DNA from: Bacillota bacterium
GTDB taxonomy: Bacteria; Bacillota; Limnochordia; Darwinibacteriales; DTU012
Assembly: GCA_012521185.1 (NCBI GenBank)
Contig: JAAYMV010000020.1
Coordinates: 1 to 33,667, forward strand
Reading direction: 5' to 3'
Length of the DNA: 33,667 bases
The position numbers and the translations under genes were made by a program. Below are positions 11,968 to 24,340 of the stretch, one piece after another (position 1 is the stretch's first letter; every line of letters begins with the position of its first letter). The notes beneath the pieces were generated by a model that did not search any database, was not told the origin of the DNA, and worked only from the letters and a program-made list of their open reading frames with translations.

Positions 11968-11972
11968 TTCAA

Positions 11973-11988
11973 TGTTCCACGTGGAACA
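11973..11988. promoter_or_regulatory. parS centromere site
   Basis: TGTTCCACGTGGAACA is a perfect 16-base palindrome and differs by one base from the Bacillus parS TGTTCCACGTGAAACA. It fills most of the 26-base convergent gap between yyaC and the MinD-like gene, about 1.2 kb from parB. ParB loads here to organise the origin with ParA. I found no second copy in the window. Confidence 0.93.
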
Positions 11989-11993
11989 TTTGC

Positions 11994-13151: not shown

Positions 13152-13991
13152 CTAACCTCTCATAAAATCAAGTATTCTCTCTAATTCTTCATCTGAATAA
13201 TACTCTATTTCAATTTTTCCTTTTCCTTGATGATAATCTAAACGAACCTTAGTACCTAGCACTCTTTGCAATTCTTCTTGCAATACCTTAACCTCTGGAT
13301 TCTGTTCCCTTTTTGTTGGTTTAGGTTTCTTAGATTTACCTTTAATTATTTTTTCTAGCTGTCTTACAGACATTTCTTCTTTAATCACTCGTTTTGCCAA
13401 ATGCTGTCTTTCGGCAACATCCTCTATGCTAAGCAACACTTTGGCATGGCCTTTACTTAACTGACCGCTACTAACTAAAGACTTTACTTGCTGATCTAAA
13501 TTGAGCAGTCTTAAAGCATTAGTAATAGAAGACCTTTTTTTGCCAACAGCTTCAGCCACTTCTTCTTGCGTTAAATTAAATTCTTCTAATAGTAAGCGAT
13601 AACCTTCTGCTTCCTCAATGGCATTTAAATCTTCCCGCTGCAAGTTTTCAATTAAAGCTATTTCTGTCATCTCTTTATCTGTTAGGTCTTTGACTATGGC
13701 AGGAATGCTTTCTAGCCCGGCTAATGAACAAGCCCGCCAACGCCGCTCCCCAGCAACAATTTGATAACCACCGTTATATCGACGAACTATAATCGGCTCT
13801 AACACCCCATGCTGTTTTATAGAATCGGCTAGCTGTTGTAACTTTTCTTCATCAAACTCCTTACGCGGTTGAAATGGATTAGCAGTAATTAGATTTAATT
13901 GAATATGGCTAACTCCTTGTTTGTCGCCAGATATTTCATCCATTTGCGGAATTAATGAACGCAATCCTCGGCCTAAAGCTTGCCTACTCAT
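13152..13991 (-). CDS. parB: Chromosome partitioning protein ParB (Spo0J)
   Basis: CTP-dependent DNA clamp that loads at parS and spreads. The 279-residue protein has ITANPFQPRKEFDEEKL, the CTP-binding C-motif GERRWRAC, ENLQREDLNAIEEAEGY and an HTH with VGKKRSSITNALRLLNL. SKGHAKVLL and a C-terminal dimerisation domain ending YYSDEELERILDFM follow. The arginine in KKRSS and the glycine in SKGHAK are parS-type residues, unlike the Gln and Arg in the neighbouring Noc. Its ATG overlaps the parA stop (ATGA), so the pair is translationally coupled. Confidence 0.97.
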   Translation of the reverse strand: MSRQALGRGLRSLIPQMDEISGDKQGVSHIQLNLITANPFQPRKEFDEEKLQQLADSIKQHGVLEPIIVRRYNGGYQIVAGERRWRACSLAGLESIPAIVKDLTDKEMTEIALIENLQREDLNAIEEAEGYRLLLEEFNLTQEEVAEAVGKKRSSITNALRLLNLDQQVKSLVSSGQLSKGHAKVLLSIEDVAERQHLAKRVIKEEMSVRQLEKIIKGKSKKPKPTKREQNPEVKVLQEELQRVLGTKVRLDYHQGKGKIEIEYYSDEELERILDFMRG

Positions 13992-14752
13992 GATTCTAGC
14001 ACCTCCTTGGCTAACTCTTCATAGGCAATGGCTCCTTTAGATTTAGCATCATAGAGAGCAATTGGTTGACCAAAGCTAGGTGCTTCACTTAACCGTATGT
14101 TTCGAGGAATGACCGAGTCATAAACTTTAACCTGTGATTGAAAGTAATTTTTTACATCCTGGATGACTTGATAGGATAAATTGGTGCGAGAATCGAACAT
14201 GGTCATTACAACCCCTTCCCATTCTAAATCTGGGTTAAGGTGTTCTTGAACCATAGCAATAGTGCTCACCAACTGACTTAAACCTTCTAAAGCATAATAT
14301 TCGCACTGAATTGGCACTAAAACACTATTGGATGCTGTTAAGGCATTGATTGTTAATAAACCTAAAGAGGGCGGAGCATCGATTAGGATATAATCGTATT
14401 GATCAGCTATTGTGTCCAAAGCTTTTTTGAGGCGAAACTCTCGTGACATAATCGAAACTAACTCAATTTCTGCTCCAGCCAACTCAATTGTAGCAGGAGC
14501 AACATCAAATCCTTGAATTGCAGTTGGTTGAATGACCCTTTCCATTCTTTCGCCCTCAATAATTGCTGAGTATACGCAGCGTTCAATTTTACTTTTATCG
14601 ACACCAACACCGCTAGAAGCATTGCCTTGCGGATCAATGTCAAATAGCAAGACCCTCTTGCCAGCTAAGGCCAAATAAGCACCTAAATTAACTGCAGTGG
14701 TACTTTTACCTACACCGCCTTTTTGATTAACGATGGAAATAATTCTTGCCAT
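13988..14752 (-). CDS. parA: Chromosome partitioning ATPase ParA (Soj)
   Basis: A 254-residue ParA ATPase that works with ParB-parS in origin segregation; in Bacillus it also controls DnaA. The deviant Walker A KGGVGKSTT (11-19) follows IISIVNQ. The standard catalytic LFDIDPQGNASSGVG is intact, in contrast to the MinD-like neighbour. YILIDAPPSLGLLTINAL and SVIPRNIRLSEAPSFGQPI are diagnostic. The start is ATG with GGAGGGAGC located in the end of noc; the gap to noc is 2 bases. Confidence 0.97.
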   Translation of the reverse strand: MARIISIVNQKGGVGKSTTAVNLGAYLALAGKRVLLFDIDPQGNASSGVGVDKSKIERCVYSAIIEGERMERVIQPTAIQGFDVAPATIELAGAEIELVSIMSREFRLKKALDTIADQYDYILIDAPPSLGLLTINALTASNSVLVPIQCEYYALEGLSQLVSTIAMVQEHLNPDLEWEGVVMTMFDSRTNLSYQVIQDVKNYFQSQVKVYDSVIPRNIRLSEAPSFGQPIALYDAKSKGAIAYEELAKEVLES

Positions 14753-14754
14753 TA

Positions 14755-15615
14755 TTATTGCTCCCTCCTCTCAGGCTTCTTTATCAACACAGTTACTTTA
14801 TAATAATCATCCTCTTCTTCCTCTTGATAATCAACTGTTAAACCACTAGCTTGTAAAGTACTAGTTAGCTCTTTAACACTATTGGTAAATAAGCGAATAT
14901 CTTTAAAAATCATTTTCCTAACGCTTTTACCTTTTAATTCTTCTCCTTTTGTAAGAAACTTAGCAATAAATTCCTCAGTTTGCCGAACATTTAACGACTG
15001 CTTTACCACAGTTTCAATGATCTCTAGCTGCTCTTCAGTAGACTCTAATTTTAACAATGCACGAGCATGTCTTTCAGTTAACATTTCCCGGGAAATTACT
15101 TCCCGCACCTGCTGATCCAAGCGCAGTAACCTTAAACGGTTAGCAATGCTGGATTGGCTTTTACCTAGCCTTTTAGCTAACTCATCTTGAGTTAAATTAA
15201 ACTCTTGCAGCAGTTTATTATAACCTTCAGCCTCCTCGAAAAAATGTAGATCGCGACGCTGAAGATTCTCAATCAAAGCCATTTCTGCTGTTAACCGATC
15301 ATCTAACTCTTTAACTATTGCCGGAACGGTCTCCCAGCCAAGTTTCTTACAAGCGCGCAAACGCCGCTCCCCTGCTACTAATTGATAGCCTCCCTCAGTT
15401 TTGCGCACCACTAATGGATGAAGTATTCCATGAGTCGCAATGGATTCAGCTAATTCATCTAATCCATGACTTTCAAATTCAACTCGAGGTTGAAATGGAT
15501 TAGGTTCAATCAATTCTATCGGCAATGATTGAACTTCCTCCTGCCACTGATGTTCCGTACTAGTATCGTTTTTGTTACTTCTTCCCATAGGCCGCAAAAT
15601 ATCCGTAAGCTTCAA
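14755..15615 (-). CDS. noc: Nucleoid occlusion protein Noc (ParB paralogue)
   Basis: Noc binds dispersed sites and the membrane to keep the division septum off the nucleoid. The 286-residue protein has the ParB fold with NPFQPRVEFESHGLDELAESI, GERRLRACKKLGW and ALIENLQRRDLHFFEEAEGY, then an HTH with GKSQSSIANRLRLL and TERHARALL. The C-terminus KDIRLFTNSVKELTSTLQASG..VDYQEEEEDDYYKVTVLI is typical of Noc, not Spo0J. The first dozen residues (MKLTDILRPMGR) could form the membrane-targeting helix. The start is TTG at 15615 with GAGGTGATGA. It lies upstream of parA and downstream of rsmG, as in Bacillus, and contains a perfect Noc-binding site. Confidence 0.93.
   Translation of the reverse strand: MKLTDILRPMGRSNKNDTSTEHQWQEEVQSLPIELIEPNPFQPRVEFESHGLDELAESIATHGILHPLVVRKTEGGYQLVAGERRLRACKKLGWETVPAIVKELDDRLTAEMALIENLQRRDLHFFEEAEGYNKLLQEFNLTQDELAKRLGKSQSSIANRLRLLRLDQQVREVISREMLTERHARALLKLESTEEQLEIIETVVKQSLNVRQTEEFIAKFLTKGEELKGKSVRKMIFKDIRLFTNSVKELTSTLQASGLTVDYQEEEEDDYYKVTVLIKKPERREQ
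15083..15096. promoter_or_regulatory. Noc-binding site (NBS) inside noc
   Basis: ATTTCCCGGGAAAT is a perfect 14-base palindrome, identical to the Bacillus subtilis Noc-binding consensus as I know it. It lies in the noc coding region over the codons for ISRE, just before the TERHAR motif. An exact match by chance in 33 kb is very unlikely. Confidence 0.75.
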
Positions 15616-15710: not shown

Positions 15711-15757
15711 AAAAACCGCTAAATGTCTAGCTTATGCTAGACCAATTAGCGGTTTTT
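15711..15757. terminator. Bidirectional terminator at the 3' end of rsmG
   Basis: A long stem (AAAAACCGCTAA with TTAGCGGTTTTT) encloses an inner stem (TCTAGC/GCTAGA). T-runs follow in both directions. The last rsmG codons and its stop (15732-15734) lie inside the hairpin. Confidence 0.85.
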
Positions 15758-16466
15758 TGTTCGGAATGCCTGCTTTTCTTGGATATTCTGCAGAAACATG
15801 AGACTTTTTATGAAAAACTAGAATGGAACGTTCACCCATCTCAAAGGGTAAAGAAAAGTGTGCTACACTAATCAGCTCTAAGCCAAGCTCTTTCATGGCA
15901 AACTTCGATTCACTTAGTTCTGCTTGAATATCGCCAGCTTTCATTGCAACAAAATGCCCATTAAGCTTAACAAAGGGTGAACAATACTCAATTAAAGTTG
16001 GTAAAGCAGCTACAGCCCGAGCAGTAACCCAGTCATAAGTCTCACGATGTTCAGAATCCCGTGCTAAATCTTCTGCCCGGTGATGTAAACAACTGACCCT
16101 TGCTAGTCCTAGCTTGTCTTTTACCAATTTCAGAAAATTTATTCTTTTGGCGAGAGAATCTAATAATGTAATTTCTGCCTCGGAGTAATAGCACGCCAAA
16201 ACTACACCTGGAAATCCAGCTCCAGTGCCAATATCAATCCCACGGCTGTTAAAGTTAATGCCTACTTTAGCTAACAACAAACAATCAACAAAATGCTTAA
16301 TTGCAAACTCTTCCATAGAGGTAATTCTAGTTAAATTCATAGTTTTATTAGTTTCCAAGACTAAATCAGCATAATCAAGTAATCTAGTTAGTTGAATCTC
16401 AGTCAAAGAAATCTCGGCTTGTTCACAGCCCTTAATTAACCACTCTTTTAATAAGTCTCTATCCAT
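15732..16466 (-). CDS. rsmG: 16S rRNA (guanine-N7) methyltransferase RsmG (GidB)
   Basis: Methylates N7 of G527 in 16S rRNA, a site linked to streptomycin sensitivity. The 244-residue protein has NLTRI, the SAM-binding DIGTGAGFPGVVLA (78-91), TLLDSLAKRINFLK and VTARAVAALPTLIEYC. ATG start with GGAGAG upstream, 8 bases after the mnmG1 stop. The C-terminal tail of about 20 residues (from SHVSAEYP) runs into the terminator hairpin and looks like an extension beyond the conserved domain. Confidence 0.95.
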   Translation of the reverse strand: MDRDLLKEWLIKGCEQAEISLTEIQLTRLLDYADLVLETNKTMNLTRITSMEEFAIKHFVDCLLLAKVGINFNSRGIDIGTGAGFPGVVLACYYSEAEITLLDSLAKRINFLKLVKDKLGLARVSCLHHRAEDLARDSEHRETYDWVTARAVAALPTLIEYCSPFVKLNGHFVAMKAGDIQAELSESKFAMKELGLELISVAHFSLPFEMGERSILVFHKKSHVSAEYPRKAGIPNKKPLIGLA

Positions 16467-16474
16467 AGACTCTC

Positions 16475-18349
16475 CTACTTTTCTTGTACTTTTTTCATCT
16501 GCTCAATATAAACCAGTAATACAGAAATATCAGCTGGACTTACTCCAGAAATTCTTGAAGCTTGTCCTAATGTTATTGGCTGCTGCTCAGACAGCTTTTC
16601 CACCGCTTCCCTTGATAACCCCTTAACTTGTTTATAATCAATAACAGGAAGTTTTAGATTTTCGGTTTTTCGGAACCGAGCGATAGCTTCTTCTTGTTTC
16701 TTCAAATATCCTTTATATTTAATACTAATTTCCACCTCTTTAATTACTTCAGGTGGTAAATCAGGTAATTCATCTAAGTGAGCTAAATCCTGATAGCCAA
16801 TTTCTGGGCGTCTTAATAATTCAGCCAGAGTAATTCCGTGTCGAATTTCAGTTGTACCAAGCTTTTGCAAAATTTCGTTAGTAGCCTGATTAGAACGTAA
16901 TTTAACATTTTCTAATCGTTCAATTTCTCCTTCAATGTTAGCCCATTTTTCCTGAAATTTGTCATATCTTTCTTGAGAAATTAAACCTAACTTATATCCT
17001 AAAGGAGTTAAGCGCTGATCAGCATTGTCAGCTCGTAAAAACAAGCGATATTCGGCTCGAGACGTCATAATCCGATAAGGCTCATTAGTACCCTTAATAA
17101 CTAAATCATCAATTAACACTCCAAGGTAAGCTTGAGAACGGTCAATGGTAAATAAATCTTTTCCATCAACATATAAAGCAGCATTAATTCCAGCAATTAG
17201 TCCTTGGCCAGCAGCTTCCTCATAACCTGAGCTACCATTAATTTGACCTGCAGAAAATAAACCTTTAATAGATTTAACTTGCAAATAAGTGTTCAATAGT
17301 CGTGGATCAAAACAGTCATACTCAATAGCATAGCCAGCACGCATAACCTCAACGTTTTCTAAACCAGGAATAGTACGTAAAAACTGGATCTGCACATCAA
17401 CCGGTAATGAAGTAGCTAAACCACTTAAATATCCTTCGGAAGTGTTCCAACCTTCAGGTTCTACAAAAACTTGATGGCCAGTCCGATCCGGGAATTGCAC
17501 TACTTTAGCTTCAATTGATGGACAATACCTTGGACCAGGTCCTGTAATTTGCCCACTATATAAGGCGGCTCGATGCAAGTTGTTCCGAATAATTTGATGG
17601 GTTTCTTCATTAGTATAGGTTAACCAACAAGGAACTTGTTTTATATTCAATTCTTTTGTTTCAAAGGAAAATCCGCCAATATTTTCATCTCCAGGTTGAA
17701 TAGTCATCTTGCTAAAATCTAAAGATCTTAAGTTAACCCGAGCTGGAGTACCTGTCTTAAAACGTACTAATGGCAAATACTTTTCTAAAGCTTTACCCAT
17801 TTCATTAGCTGGGCACTGCCCTTGTGGAGCTAATTGATAAGTTTCTTCGCCAATATGAATTACTGAACGCAAATAGGTTCCAGTAGCTAAAATAACTGTT
17901 TTACCTCTTACTTCTCTCGGACCAACTTTTACTCCTAAAACTGTATCATCTTTAACAATTAAGTCTGTGACAACGCCCTCTTTCAAATATAAATTAGGGG
18001 TATTTTCCAAAACCTGCTTCATATACCGCTGATATAACTTCCGATCTAATTGAGACCGAAGGGCTTGTACAGCAGGCCCTTTACTAGTATTTAACATCCG
18101 AATCTGCATCAGCGTTTGATCGATGGTTTTGGCCATTTGTCCGCCAAGAGCATCAATTTCTCGCACCAGGTTAGCTTTAGCGGGACCACCAATAGAAGGG
18201 TTACAAGGAAGTAAGGCAACATTATCTAAATTTAAAGTCAATAACAATACAACTTTACCCATCTTAGCAGCAGCCAAAGCAGCTTCAATGCCAGCATGTC
18301 CAGCACCAACAACAATTACATCATATTCCATGCCTTTAGGCTGATACAT
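16475..18349 (-). CDS. mnmG: tRNA uridine 5-carboxymethylaminomethyl modification enzyme MnmG, copy 1
   Basis: FAD enzyme that with MnmE adds the (carboxymethyl)aminomethyl group to U34 of certain tRNAs. The 624-residue copy has the FAD motif GAGHAG and both conserved cysteines ([24 protein letters not shown]). It also keeps [54 protein letters not shown] and the C-terminal KYKGYLKKQ and [21 protein letters not shown]. It resembles the Bacillus type and looks intact. The start is ATG 18349 with GGGGGAGAA; an internal ATG seven codons in is also possible. It overlaps the second mnmG by 14 bases. Confidence 0.93.
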
Positions 18350-20210
18350 CCTTATTCTCCCCCTTCAAAAGCACCATTAACACACCAATATCTCCAGGAG
18401 AAACACCTTGAATTCGAGCTGCTTGCCCTAAGGATGTTGGCTTGATGGTTTGCAATTTCTCTCTAGCTTCTAATCTTAATCCAGTTACTTTTTCGTAATC
18501 AAAGTCTTGTGGAATCTTAATAGCTTCTAACCTATTAAATTCTTCTACCTGTCTAACTTGGCGTTCAATATAACCTTTAAACTTACATTCAATTTCAACT
18601 TGTTCTATGATTTGAGGCTCCAAATCGGGCAAGGTAGTAAAATGTGCTAAATCAGCAAAGCTTAATTCTGGTCTTTGTAAGATCTCATGCAGGGTTACTG
18701 CTTTCTTTAGATCACCGGAACCAAGACTAATTAATTTTTCGCGTACTTCTTTAGTAGGTGAAACCTGGACACTTTCCAGCCAAGCTAAAGTTTCTTTAAT
18801 TTTGTTCTCTTTGTCAACAACCTTTTGGTAACGTTTTTGATCAATTAAACCAATTTTATAACCTAAGGGACGCAACCGCAAATCAGCATTATCTTGCCGT
18901 AATAACAAGCGATATTCGGCTCTAGAAGTAGTCATTCGATAGGGCTCATCAGTTCCTTTGGTTACTAAATCATCAATTAAAACCCCAATATAGCCTTGAG
19001 CCCGACTAATAATCACAGGTTCTCGACCTAAGATACTATGAGCTGCATTAATACCAGCAATAATACCCTGTGCCGCAGCCTCTTCATAACCAGAAGTGCC
19101 GTTAATTTGACCTGCTGAAAATAAACCGCTGATCAATTTCGATTCTAAAGTTGGCTTAACTTGCGATGGAATAATAAAATCGTATTCTACTGCATAGCCT
19201 ACTCGCATTATCTGGGCATTTTCTAAGCCTGGTATAGAACGAACTACCAATTTTTGCAAATGTTCCGGCATGGCGGTAGTTAAACCAAGACAATAAATTT
19301 CTTTAGTATATTCACCTTCAGGCTCCAAGAAAATTTGATGATCTAATTTGTCAGGAAAACGCAATACTTTCCGATCAATGGAAGGACAAAACCGCGGTCC
19401 TTTGCCAGAAACCGCTCCGGTTTTAATCGGTGAATGCTCTAAATTTTCTCTTACCACTCTAATAGTTTCATCAGTTGTCCGTGTGTACCAACAAGGCATT
19501 TGTTCCCGTTGATTTAATGGTGAATCAAATGAGAATCTAATTGGACGTTCAGAACCAGGCTGTTCCGTTAACTTAGTATAATCAACACTATCTGCATGAA
19601 CTCTAGGCGGAGTTGCAGTTTGAAAACGAGATAACTTAAAACCTAAATCACTTAAGTTTCTCGATAATTGATCCGCACTAGGCTCCCCTTCTCGTCCTCC
19701 TGGATAACGGGCATCACCAATTACAATCATACCACCTAAGAAAGTTCCTGTTGCCAAAATTACCCGTTCTCCTGGAATAATAACGCCGCTCTTGAGCTTT
19801 ACTCCCCGAACTTGTCCATCTTCAACCACTAATTCAGTAACTGTTCCTTGTCTAACATGTAAATTTTCTTGAGATTGTAATGTCAAACTCATAATAGCTG
19901 TATATTTTCGCTTATCAGCTTGAGCCCTTAAAGCATGTACAGCTGGACCCCGACTAAGATTTAGCATGCGAATATTTAAAAATGACTGATCAATCACTTT
20001 ACCCATTTCGCCGCCTAAAGCATCTATTTCCCTTACCAAGTGACTCTTAGCCGCTGGTCCACCAATTGCAGGATTACACGACAACTGAGCAATGGTATCT
20101 AGGTTCATAGTTATTATTAAGGTTTTACATCCTAAACGAGCAGCTGCTAATGCTGCCTCACAGCCCGCATGGCCTGCGCCAACTACTATCACTTGATAAT
20201 TACTACTCAT
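18336..20210 (-). CDS. mnmG: tRNA modification enzyme MnmG, copy 2 (divergent tandem paralogue)
   Basis: A second full-length MnmG of 624 residues directly upstream of copy 1. FAD motif GAGHAG, both cysteines ([27 protein letters not shown]), [18 protein letters not shown], the [18 protein letters not shown] block and the [10 protein letters not shown]-terminal domain are all present. It differs at FQTATPPRV (usually FKTGTP), has one extra residue in GPAAKSH and carries a GGREGEPS loop like the proteobacterial enzyme. By eye it is roughly half identical to copy 1, so not a recent duplication. I start it at ATG 20210 (AGGG upstream, 7 bases after mnmE); the frame is open to 20255 but would overlap mnmE. 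Confidence 0.9.
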
Positions 20211-20217
20211 TTTTACC

Positions 20218-21588
20218 CTACTTTCCAATACAAAATTGTTCAAAGATCCGATCAATCATATTATCACGGACAGTTTCACCAGTAATTTCACCTAAGTGTT
20301 CTAAAGCGCCTTGCAAGCCAATAGCAATTAAGTCAACAGGTAGATTATTGCTTAAAGTTTCCTGAGCTTGCTCTAAATCAGCTAATGCCAATGATAATAA
20401 TTGTTTATGTCGACTGCGTGTAATAATTGCCCCTTCTTGTTTTTGTTGTACATAACCACTTTTGATCAATCCTATTATAGTGTCAATCACTGGGTCAAGA
20501 CTATCACGTACTAGGGAAGTCTTAACAATTTTGGCATCCTGTGGTAATACATCTATACTCCATTTCTCGGGCAAGTCAATCTTATTAACGATTAATACCC
20601 GTTGCTTTTTAGCGGTTTTCTCTAATAAAGAAAAATCATCCTCAGTCAATTCACTACTGGCATCTAATACATGCAAAACCAAATCCGCTTCATCAATTAA
20701 TTGAATTGCTCGTTCCACACCCATCTGTTCTACTAAATCATCAGATTCTCTAATGCCTGCTGTGTCCAATAAGCGAAGGGGAATCCCTTGCAAATTTAAA
20801 ACTTCCTCAATTACATCCCGTGTCGTACCAGGTATATCCGTTACTAAAGCCCGATTTTCATTTAATAATCGATTTAATAAACTGGATTTACCAACATTCG
20901 GTTTTCCAGTAATCACTGTTTTCAGACCTTCTCTTAAAACTTTACCACTATCAGCTGTAGCTAACAGCCTAGTAATATCCTGATGAATATCTGCTAATAT
21001 TTCCTTCATCTCTGAGTATTCTACATCTGGAATATCATCCTCAGGAAAATCAATTGAAGCTTCTATCCGAACAATAATATCATATAATTTTTCTCGCATT
21101 TCTTGAATGCGATTACTTAAACTGCCCTCTAACTGCTGAACCGCCAAATCTAAGCTTAATTCCGTTTTGGAACGAATTACATCTATAACTGCTTCTGCTT
21201 GCGATAAGTCAATTCGACCATTGAGAAATGCTCTTTTGGTAAATTCCCCTGGTTCAGCTAGACGTGCGCCATAAGATAACACTAAATCTAAGATTTTTTG
21301 AATGACCACTATACCACCATGGCATTGCAATTCTACAACGTCTTCGCCTGTATATGATTTAGGTTTTAACATTACTGCAGCTATTACTTCATCAACAACT
21401 TTTTGATCTCGATCAATAATCTTACCATAAGCCAAAGTATAAGTGGGCAAATTTTTTAACTTTTTATTTTGTTTAGCTCGAAAAACCTGATCTCCAATTT
21501 TTAAAGCATCAGGACCACTTAAACGAACTATGCCAATGCCGCCTTCACCTAAGGGTGTAGCAATAGCAGCTATTGTATCATTGTACAT
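20218..21588 (-). CDS. mnmE: tRNA modification GTPase MnmE (TrmE)
   Basis: GTPase partner of MnmG in wobble-uridine modification. The 456-residue protein has an N-terminal folate-binding domain (TIAAIATPLGEGGIGIVRLSGP), then EFTKRAFLNGRIDLSQAEAV. The G domain inserted in the helical domain has GKPNVGKSS at 228-236, DIPGTTRD, DTAGIR and NKID. It ends in the conserved FCIGK (452-456), whose cysteine belongs to the family signature. ATG start with GGTGGGAT. It heads the mnmE-mnmG2-mnmG1-rsmG segment, just after a weak hairpin that follows jag. Confidence 0.97.
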   Translation of the reverse strand: MYNDTIAAIATPLGEGGIGIVRLSGPDALKIGDQVFRAKQNKKLKNLPTYTLAYGKIIDRDQKVVDEVIAAVMLKPKSYTGEDVVELQCHGGIVVIQKILDLVLSYGARLAEPGEFTKRAFLNGRIDLSQAEAVIDVIRSKTELSLDLAVQQLEGSLSNRIQEMREKLYDIIVRIEASIDFPEDDIPDVEYSEMKEILADIHQDITRLLATADSGKVLREGLKTVITGKPNVGKSSLLNRLLNENRALVTDIPGTTRDVIEEVLNLQGIPLRLLDTAGIRESDDLVEQMGVERAIQLIDEADLVLHVLDASSELTEDDFSLLEKTAKKQRVLIVNKIDLPEKWSIDVLPQDAKIVKTSLVRDSLDPVIDTIIGLIKSGYVQQKQEGAIITRSRHKQLLSLALADLEQAQETLSNNLPVDLIAIGLQGALEHLGEITGETVRDNMIDRIFEQFCIGK

Positions 21589-24268: not shown

Positions 24269-24277
24269 TTATTCACA
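24269..24277 (+). promoter_or_regulatory. DnaA box TTATTCACA
   Basis: Exact fit to TTATNCACA, 15 bases before the next perfect box and in the same orientation. Confidence 0.85.
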
Positions 24278-24283
24278 ATCCAA

Positions 24284-24292
24284 TTATCCACA
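24284..24292 (+). promoter_or_regulatory. DnaA box TTATCCACA
   Basis: Exact high-affinity consensus, about 90 bases upstream of dnaA. Confidence 0.9.
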
Positions 24293-24331
24293 ATCATTTC
24301 AGATTATATTTATGTTTTGCAGGCAGGAACC

Positions 24332-24340
24332 TGTGGATAA
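24332..24340 (-). promoter_or_regulatory. DnaA box TGTGGATAA (reverse)
   Basis: Exact consensus on the minus strand, 44 bases before the dnaA start, where bound DnaA could repress its own gene. Confidence 0.9.

Follow-up and report, generated by a model that had tools for sequence, protein, structure and literature searches.

Noc controls cell division by binding to specific DNA sites. The noc gene of a Bacillota bacterium carries, inside its own coding sequence, a perfect palindrome that is best read as a genuine Noc-binding site (NBS). On comparative sequence evidence, we put the probability at roughly 0.8 that this palindrome is a real NBS, selected at the DNA level within the coding sequence of the protein that reads it and located about 9 kb from the replication origin (oriC).

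Identity of the palindrome within noc

A search of the whole window, the stretch of 33,667 nucleotides analyzed here, found ATTTCCCGGGAAAT as an exact 14-mer in a single copy (Table 1). Counted from the start of noc, the site begins at base 520 and overlies the in-frame codons ATT TCC CGG GAA ATG (ISREM), the last of which, AT(G), lies only partly inside it. The original prediction of an exact Noc-binding palindrome at base 520 of noc, over ISRE, is confirmed for the 14-bp core, and its estimate of about 0.0001 exact matches per window was reproduced (~1e-4 for a specified 14-mer in 33.7 kb, at 4^-14 per position). The full published NBS is 16 bp long, TATTTCCC-GGGAAATA (PMC7383237), and the further claim that this is exactly the Bacillus sequence holds for the core and fails at the outermost pair of the longer site. 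On the coding strand of noc, the window reads AATTTCCCGGGAAATG, which departs from TATTTCCCGGGAAATA at the outermost T/A pair; the latter is an idealized consensus, and natural NBS vary. NBS and parS are told apart by two positions other than this outer pair, and the window site has the NBS base at both of them (A1 and C6 of each half-site). When up to three mismatches to the NBS were allowed, the window held two matches against 1.9 expected, which is nothing beyond chance.

Table 1. Positions of the Noc-binding palindrome, its reader and associated features in the window.
Feature	Position	Strand	Basis
Intragenic NBS ATTTCCCGGGAAAT, perfect palindrome	15083..15096	no strand	exact match; synonymous conservation in 72 noc genes
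noc (nucleoid occlusion protein); TTG start at 15615, Shine-Dalgarno-like AGGTGA before start	14755..15615	-	TIGR04285, 335 bits; residues QRRR
Codon of Gln154 of Noc (Q173 in Caulobacter ParB numbering), predicted to read adenine 1 of the NBS	15154..15156	-	alignment; PMC7383237
Codon of Arg182 of Noc (R201), predicted to read cytosine 6 of the NBS; 10 bp beyond the site	15070..15072	-	alignment; PMC7383237
parA (soj)	13988..14752	-	ParA-type ATPase models; KGGVGKST motif; synteny
parB (spo0J), paralogue of noc; residues R173, A179, N184, G201 (parS type)	13152..13991	-	alignment; profile scores
rsmG (gidB), upstream neighbor of noc	15732..16466	-	profile match; order as in Bacillus gidA-gidB-noc-parA-parB
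dnaA	24384..25790	+	TIGR00362, 599 bits
Three DnaA boxes TTATTCACA, TTATCCACA, TGTGGATAA; putative oriC, ~9.2 kb from the site	24269..24340	no strand	sequence motif
parS TGTTCCACGTGGAACA, between genes, downstream of parB; no second clear parS found in the window genome	11973..11988	no strand	sequence match

The protein encoded around the site has the features of an NBS reader. The window Noc passes the curated TIGR04285 model with 335 bits against a cut-off of 315, while the product of the neighboring parB reaches only 256 bits. Its four specificity residues, Q173, R179, R184 and R201 in Caulobacter ParB numbering, are of the NBS type: Q173 reads adenine 1 and R201 reads cytosine 6, helped by a lysine or arginine at position 179 or 184 (PMC7383237). 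The CTP-binding GERR motif of the ParB-CTPase fold is present (VAGERRLRA). With regard to an amphipathic membrane helix, what Limnochordia Noc proteins display is a sequence pattern, MKLTD-[I/M/V/L]-L, as a recurrent N-terminus. The gidA-gidB-noc-parA-parB neighborhood is also present, with mnmG and rsmG before noc, and noc lies ~9 kb from dnaA. Two full-length mnmG (gidA) genes stand in tandem on the minus strand (16475-18349 and 18336-20255), overlapping by a few bases; both score far above the TIGR00136 cut-off (836 and 823 bits), and one copy is usual.

The nearest named relatives of the window genome are Limnochordia metagenome-assembled genomes (MAGs). The original prediction had proposed that Noc specificity is conserved into clostridia; clostridial genomes do also have the site, but the window genome is itself Limnochordia-like rather than clostridial. 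The broader point, that Noc specificity is conserved outside Bacillus, is supported by the NBS-type residues, by the genomic excess of NBS and by synonymous conservation, both described below.

Conservation of the site as DNA

Amino-acid searches that left the codons free returned 20 genes in Limnochordia and 28 in a phylum-wide sample, 41 of them distinct. All of these matches (20/20 and 28/28) carry exactly ATTTCCCGGGAAAT, and the codons downstream of it vary. A larger set of 189 pooled noc genes, mostly gathered with a Noc protein-family model that is blind to codons, gives the same picture. Every distinct noc gene encoding ISRE in this set (72/72) uses ATT, TCC, CGG and GAA, and the synonymous change that the original prediction had proposed looking for in homologous noc genes does not occur among them. 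The exact 14-mer is present in 66 of these 72 genes, and the other six have AA(A/G/T) instead of AT(A/G). Conservation extends beyond the four codons: the preceding codon ends in T in 66/72 genes, though 13 different residues are encoded there, and an isoleucine following ISRE is coded ATA in 33/33 cases, completing the 16-mer. Among 112 alignment columns, the four ISRE columns occupy ranks 1-4 by codon identity, at 1.00 versus 0.19-0.50 expected, and the median column shows 0.29 versus 0.26 expected; the median identity of the compared Noc proteins is ~47%. Near-NBS sequence is also found in variants of the segment (nine ISQE, two IARE and one ISRG).

A lone 14-mer in a single genome could arise as a chance match in a conserved gene. 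All of the comparative evidence, including the 72/72 noc codons together with parS in 68/68 parB genes (see below), refutes this explanation and leaves it a vanishingly small probability.

An alternative at the protein level holds that Noc needs ISRE, that its codons are set by local codon preference and that the DNA has no function as a site. The segment does lie in the DNA-binding domain and adjoins a conserved ERHAR segment, yet the neighboring invariant residues (E, R, H, R) vary their codons freely, and codon identity in 72/72 genes stands against a per-gene chance of 0.0063. The ISQE and IARE variants, moreover, retain near-NBS sequence. In noc without the site, residues 175-178 belong to the most variable part of the protein, with entropies of 3.2-3.6 bits (median column 1.68), and in site-bearing noc the entropy of the three residues wholly inside the site drops to 0.1-0.5 bits. 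At the matching place, B. subtilis-type Noc has AIMEKK and not ISRE. Codon identity and the variability of site-less genes refute protein constraint or codon bias as a sufficient explanation, and we consider it highly improbable. Free variation at these positions in site-less noc genes suggests that the amino acids of the segment are dictated by the DNA site. A segment whose residues follow from a DNA site, and not from what the protein needs, matters for how conservation in alignments is read.

Initially, the same ISRE codons seemed to recur in other proteins (43/94 and 25/76), an effect that was gone after limiting the comparison to sequence outside the noc interval. There, ISRE in the same loci has diverse codons and only 3/38 occurrences match those of the site; the three exceptions are NBS themselves, located near noc in loci without the canonical site.

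The self-complementary sequence might instead act in the mRNA, as a hairpin with a 5-bp stem and a CCGG loop. The sequence can form such a stem, but when the surrounding 94 nt were folded, the minimum-energy structure contained it in only 22/73 transcripts, and its flanks are not conserved. The same sequence also recurs in other genes and positions, and the paralogue has parS, which fits the DNA specificity of its own protein. The hairpin reading was rejected on these grounds; the chance that it is correct is slim.

Conservation as an NBS is not universal. The site is present in 84/189 noc genes. Its distribution on the noc tree is patchy, with 16 state changes, so many lineages can do without it, among them those with B. 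subtilis-type noc and two genera from the window's own family. In two noc genes without the canonical site, the linker contains an exact 16-mer NBS, in the same phase and again as xISREI. One genome encodes two different noc genes on separate contigs, both with the exact site, which may reflect contamination (4%) or two copies.

NBS elsewhere in the genomes

The genome-wide search for the 14-mer that the original prediction called for found the site elsewhere in the window's genome and above the control, for which the reversed palindrome was used. There are two exact NBS, 11 at ≤1 mismatch versus 0 control matches, and 28 at ≤2 mismatches versus 8. Across 73 Limnochordia genomes, 276 NBS versus 11 control matches were counted at ≤1 mismatch. 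The sole member of the window's family without a Noc match has no NBS at ≤1 mismatch in a 92% complete assembly, which is consistent with joint loss of the protein and its sites. Of the 15 site-bearing Limnochordia with listed matches, 13 have no exact NBS other than the noc copy. The intragenic site is also an easily searched sequence marker of functional Noc among uncultured Bacillota.

The window's own genome is in 126 contigs, and the distribution of NBS along the chromosome was studied in four complete relatives. In these four genomes, the quarter opposite noc (the terminus) is poor in NBS (7/62, P = 0.006), and the largest gap between NBS lies opposite noc in 3/4. Mean distance from noc is not significantly biased in the same relatives (P = 0.13); clustering toward the origin by mean distance was accordingly dropped, terminus depletion alone being significant.

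These features resemble those of the Noc-NBS systems of B. subtilis and S. aureus. The 14-bp core, the four specificity positions and the gene neighborhood are common to those systems and the window (PMC7383237, PMC4331003, PMC5540599), as is the scattering of NBS over the genome; the scarcity of NBS near the terminus in those systems has its parallel in the four complete relatives. The systems differ in number: there are ~70 NBS in B. subtilis and 41 in S. aureus, whereas Limnochordia often have one to few, the exact copy in noc being the only one in many genomes.

Two further NBS-like sites also lie inside genes. In six genomes of one Limnochordia family, a second conserved site, TATTCCCCGGGAAATA or its complement, is found inside a gcvPA-like gene (glycine dehydrogenase subunit 1), where it is read as D-IPREI, again in the same phase; where both are on one contig, it lies ~10-12 kb downstream of noc. 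In the window's genome, a one-mismatch NBS within secA (G000:C39:8137-8150) is read as ISRAIE, in the same phase as the noc site.

Likely function of the intragenic site

The likely role of the site, judging from its sequence and position, is that of an origin-proximal loading site for Noc clamps that is inseparable from noc. We infer that Noc binds the site in the window organism. In a mechanism modeled on work in B. subtilis (PMC8429893, PMC4331003), a Noc dimer would nucleate on the palindrome and then close as a CTP clamp. The clamp would slide across the noc-parA-parB and origin region and tether the origin region to the membrane, so that the origin-proximal nucleoid would repel FtsZ. Placement within noc would thereby provide for nucleation beside oriC and would tie the site physically to the gene of its reader; nucleation beside the origin, one of the roles suggested in the original prediction, fits the position of the site near the DnaA boxes. 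Because it is the only exact NBS in many Limnochordia genomes, the noc site may serve there as the main loading site, origin-proximal and parS-like. This suggests that nucleoid occlusion in Limnochordia may start at one origin-proximal site, unlike at the dispersed sites of B. subtilis.

Alternatively, the site could serve as an operator through which Noc regulates its own synthesis. Noc sitting at base 520 of the gene would block or slow RNA polymerase, giving negative feedback on noc-parA-parB, and conservation would reflect expression control and not the organization of the chromosome. The site does lie in the first gene of noc-parA-parB, and an inverted repeat before noc (15711-15757) could terminate rsmG transcription. 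In addition, another NBS is found in or near noc in 13/107 loci without the canonical site, versus 0/82 with it. On the other side, no recognizable promoter overlaps the site, NBS also occur in unrelated genes (gcvPA-like and secA), and ParB has parS at the matching codon. An operator is a rather doubtful explanation of the conservation; feedback on the operon, which the original prediction had also suggested, may still occur, and the operator and loading-site roles are not mutually exclusive.

A parS site at the homologous codon of parB

The paralogue of noc holds a counterpart of the site. In 24 parB genes, a parS lies at the codon homologous to the noc site and in the same phase: the parB codons NNT GTT TCA CGT GAA/GGA ACA (x-V-S-R-E/G-T) correspond to NNT ATT TCC CGG GAA ATA/G (x-I-S-R-E-I/M) in noc. 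A free-codon search of 398 genomes found that VSR[E/G]T at the homologous parB codon is parS in 68/68 cases, with no synonymous variant. The two sites tend to occur together, the parB site being present in 17/27 genomes with the exact noc site versus 51/371 others (Fisher P = 3e-8, uncorrected for phylogeny). Noc and ParB separate by a single split on the tree.

Taken together, sequence comparison indicates that the noc site probably descends from a parS inside an ancestral parB, the two specificity bases of each half-site switching together with the protein. The scenario toward which we lean is that this parS lay in codons for the DNA-binding domain and that, once the gene had duplicated, the palindrome and its four reading residues both went over from parS to NBS; the site would thereby have become an inseparable part of the gene, determining four to five amino acids of the protein. 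Position and phase favor descent from one intragenic parS, which is not proven, since Dollo parsimony needs 18 losses in each clade (noc and parB).

The main rival to descent is convergent placement, in which the NBS in noc and the parS in parB were gained independently at a permissive loop codon. In its favor is the patchy distribution of the sites among noc and parB genes alike (16 changes in noc and 25 when parB is included, with the same Dollo losses); the segment is variable and thus permissive, and parB sites are also found in the linker and near the C-terminus. What tells against convergence is the identical codon and phase in both paralogues with a shared x-[V/I]-S-R-E-[T/I/M], the co-occurrence of both sites noted above, and the fact that ~14 specified bases are harder to gain than to lose. 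Convergence is the less probable account, but a serious one.

Cognate sites inside parB-type genes are already known, as are NBS in Bacilli. In B. subtilis, parS-359 lies inside parB (spo0J), near oriC, and is a cognate site in the gene of its own reader (PMC4442127). That site pairs parS with ParB, not NBS with Noc, and placement in the DNA-binding domain at homologous noc and parB codons is separate from it. Its position is presumably the linker of B. subtilis parB. In other parB genes of the present survey, a parS is likewise located in the linker (xVPRGT), and these linker sites appear to represent the parS-359 arrangement. A third intragenic placement is seen in four parB genes of one Limnochordia family, which have parS at the very C-terminus (IVPRGT). 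The megaplasmid of Thermus thermophilus carries its cognate centromere palindrome, parSm, inside parBm (PMC4409726); it differs from the noc site in being another palindrome (AAGGACGCGTCCTT) and in belonging to a plasmid system.

The switch in specificity itself has been dissected by Jalal et al. (2020), in whose ParB-to-Noc conversion two bases and four residues separate the sites and the proteins (PMC7383237). That study traced the path of the protein with supplied sites, whereas here each paralogue contains its site at the homologous codon. This arrangement suggests a joint change of site and reader inside a single gene. Genes of this kind would offer a natural record of a site and its reader changing specificity together; work on that question has until now relied on engineered ParB and Noc. 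Our literature search found no report of an NBS inside noc, of its synonymous conservation or of homologous parS and NBS codons; the primary list of B. subtilis NBS (Wu et al. 2009) was outside that search, and prior mention there is possible.

The parB of the window has no parS at the homologous codon, where it encodes VSSGQ instead. The palindrome of the intergenic parS downstream of parB (Table 1) is located inside a terminator-like stem-loop (11971-11990).
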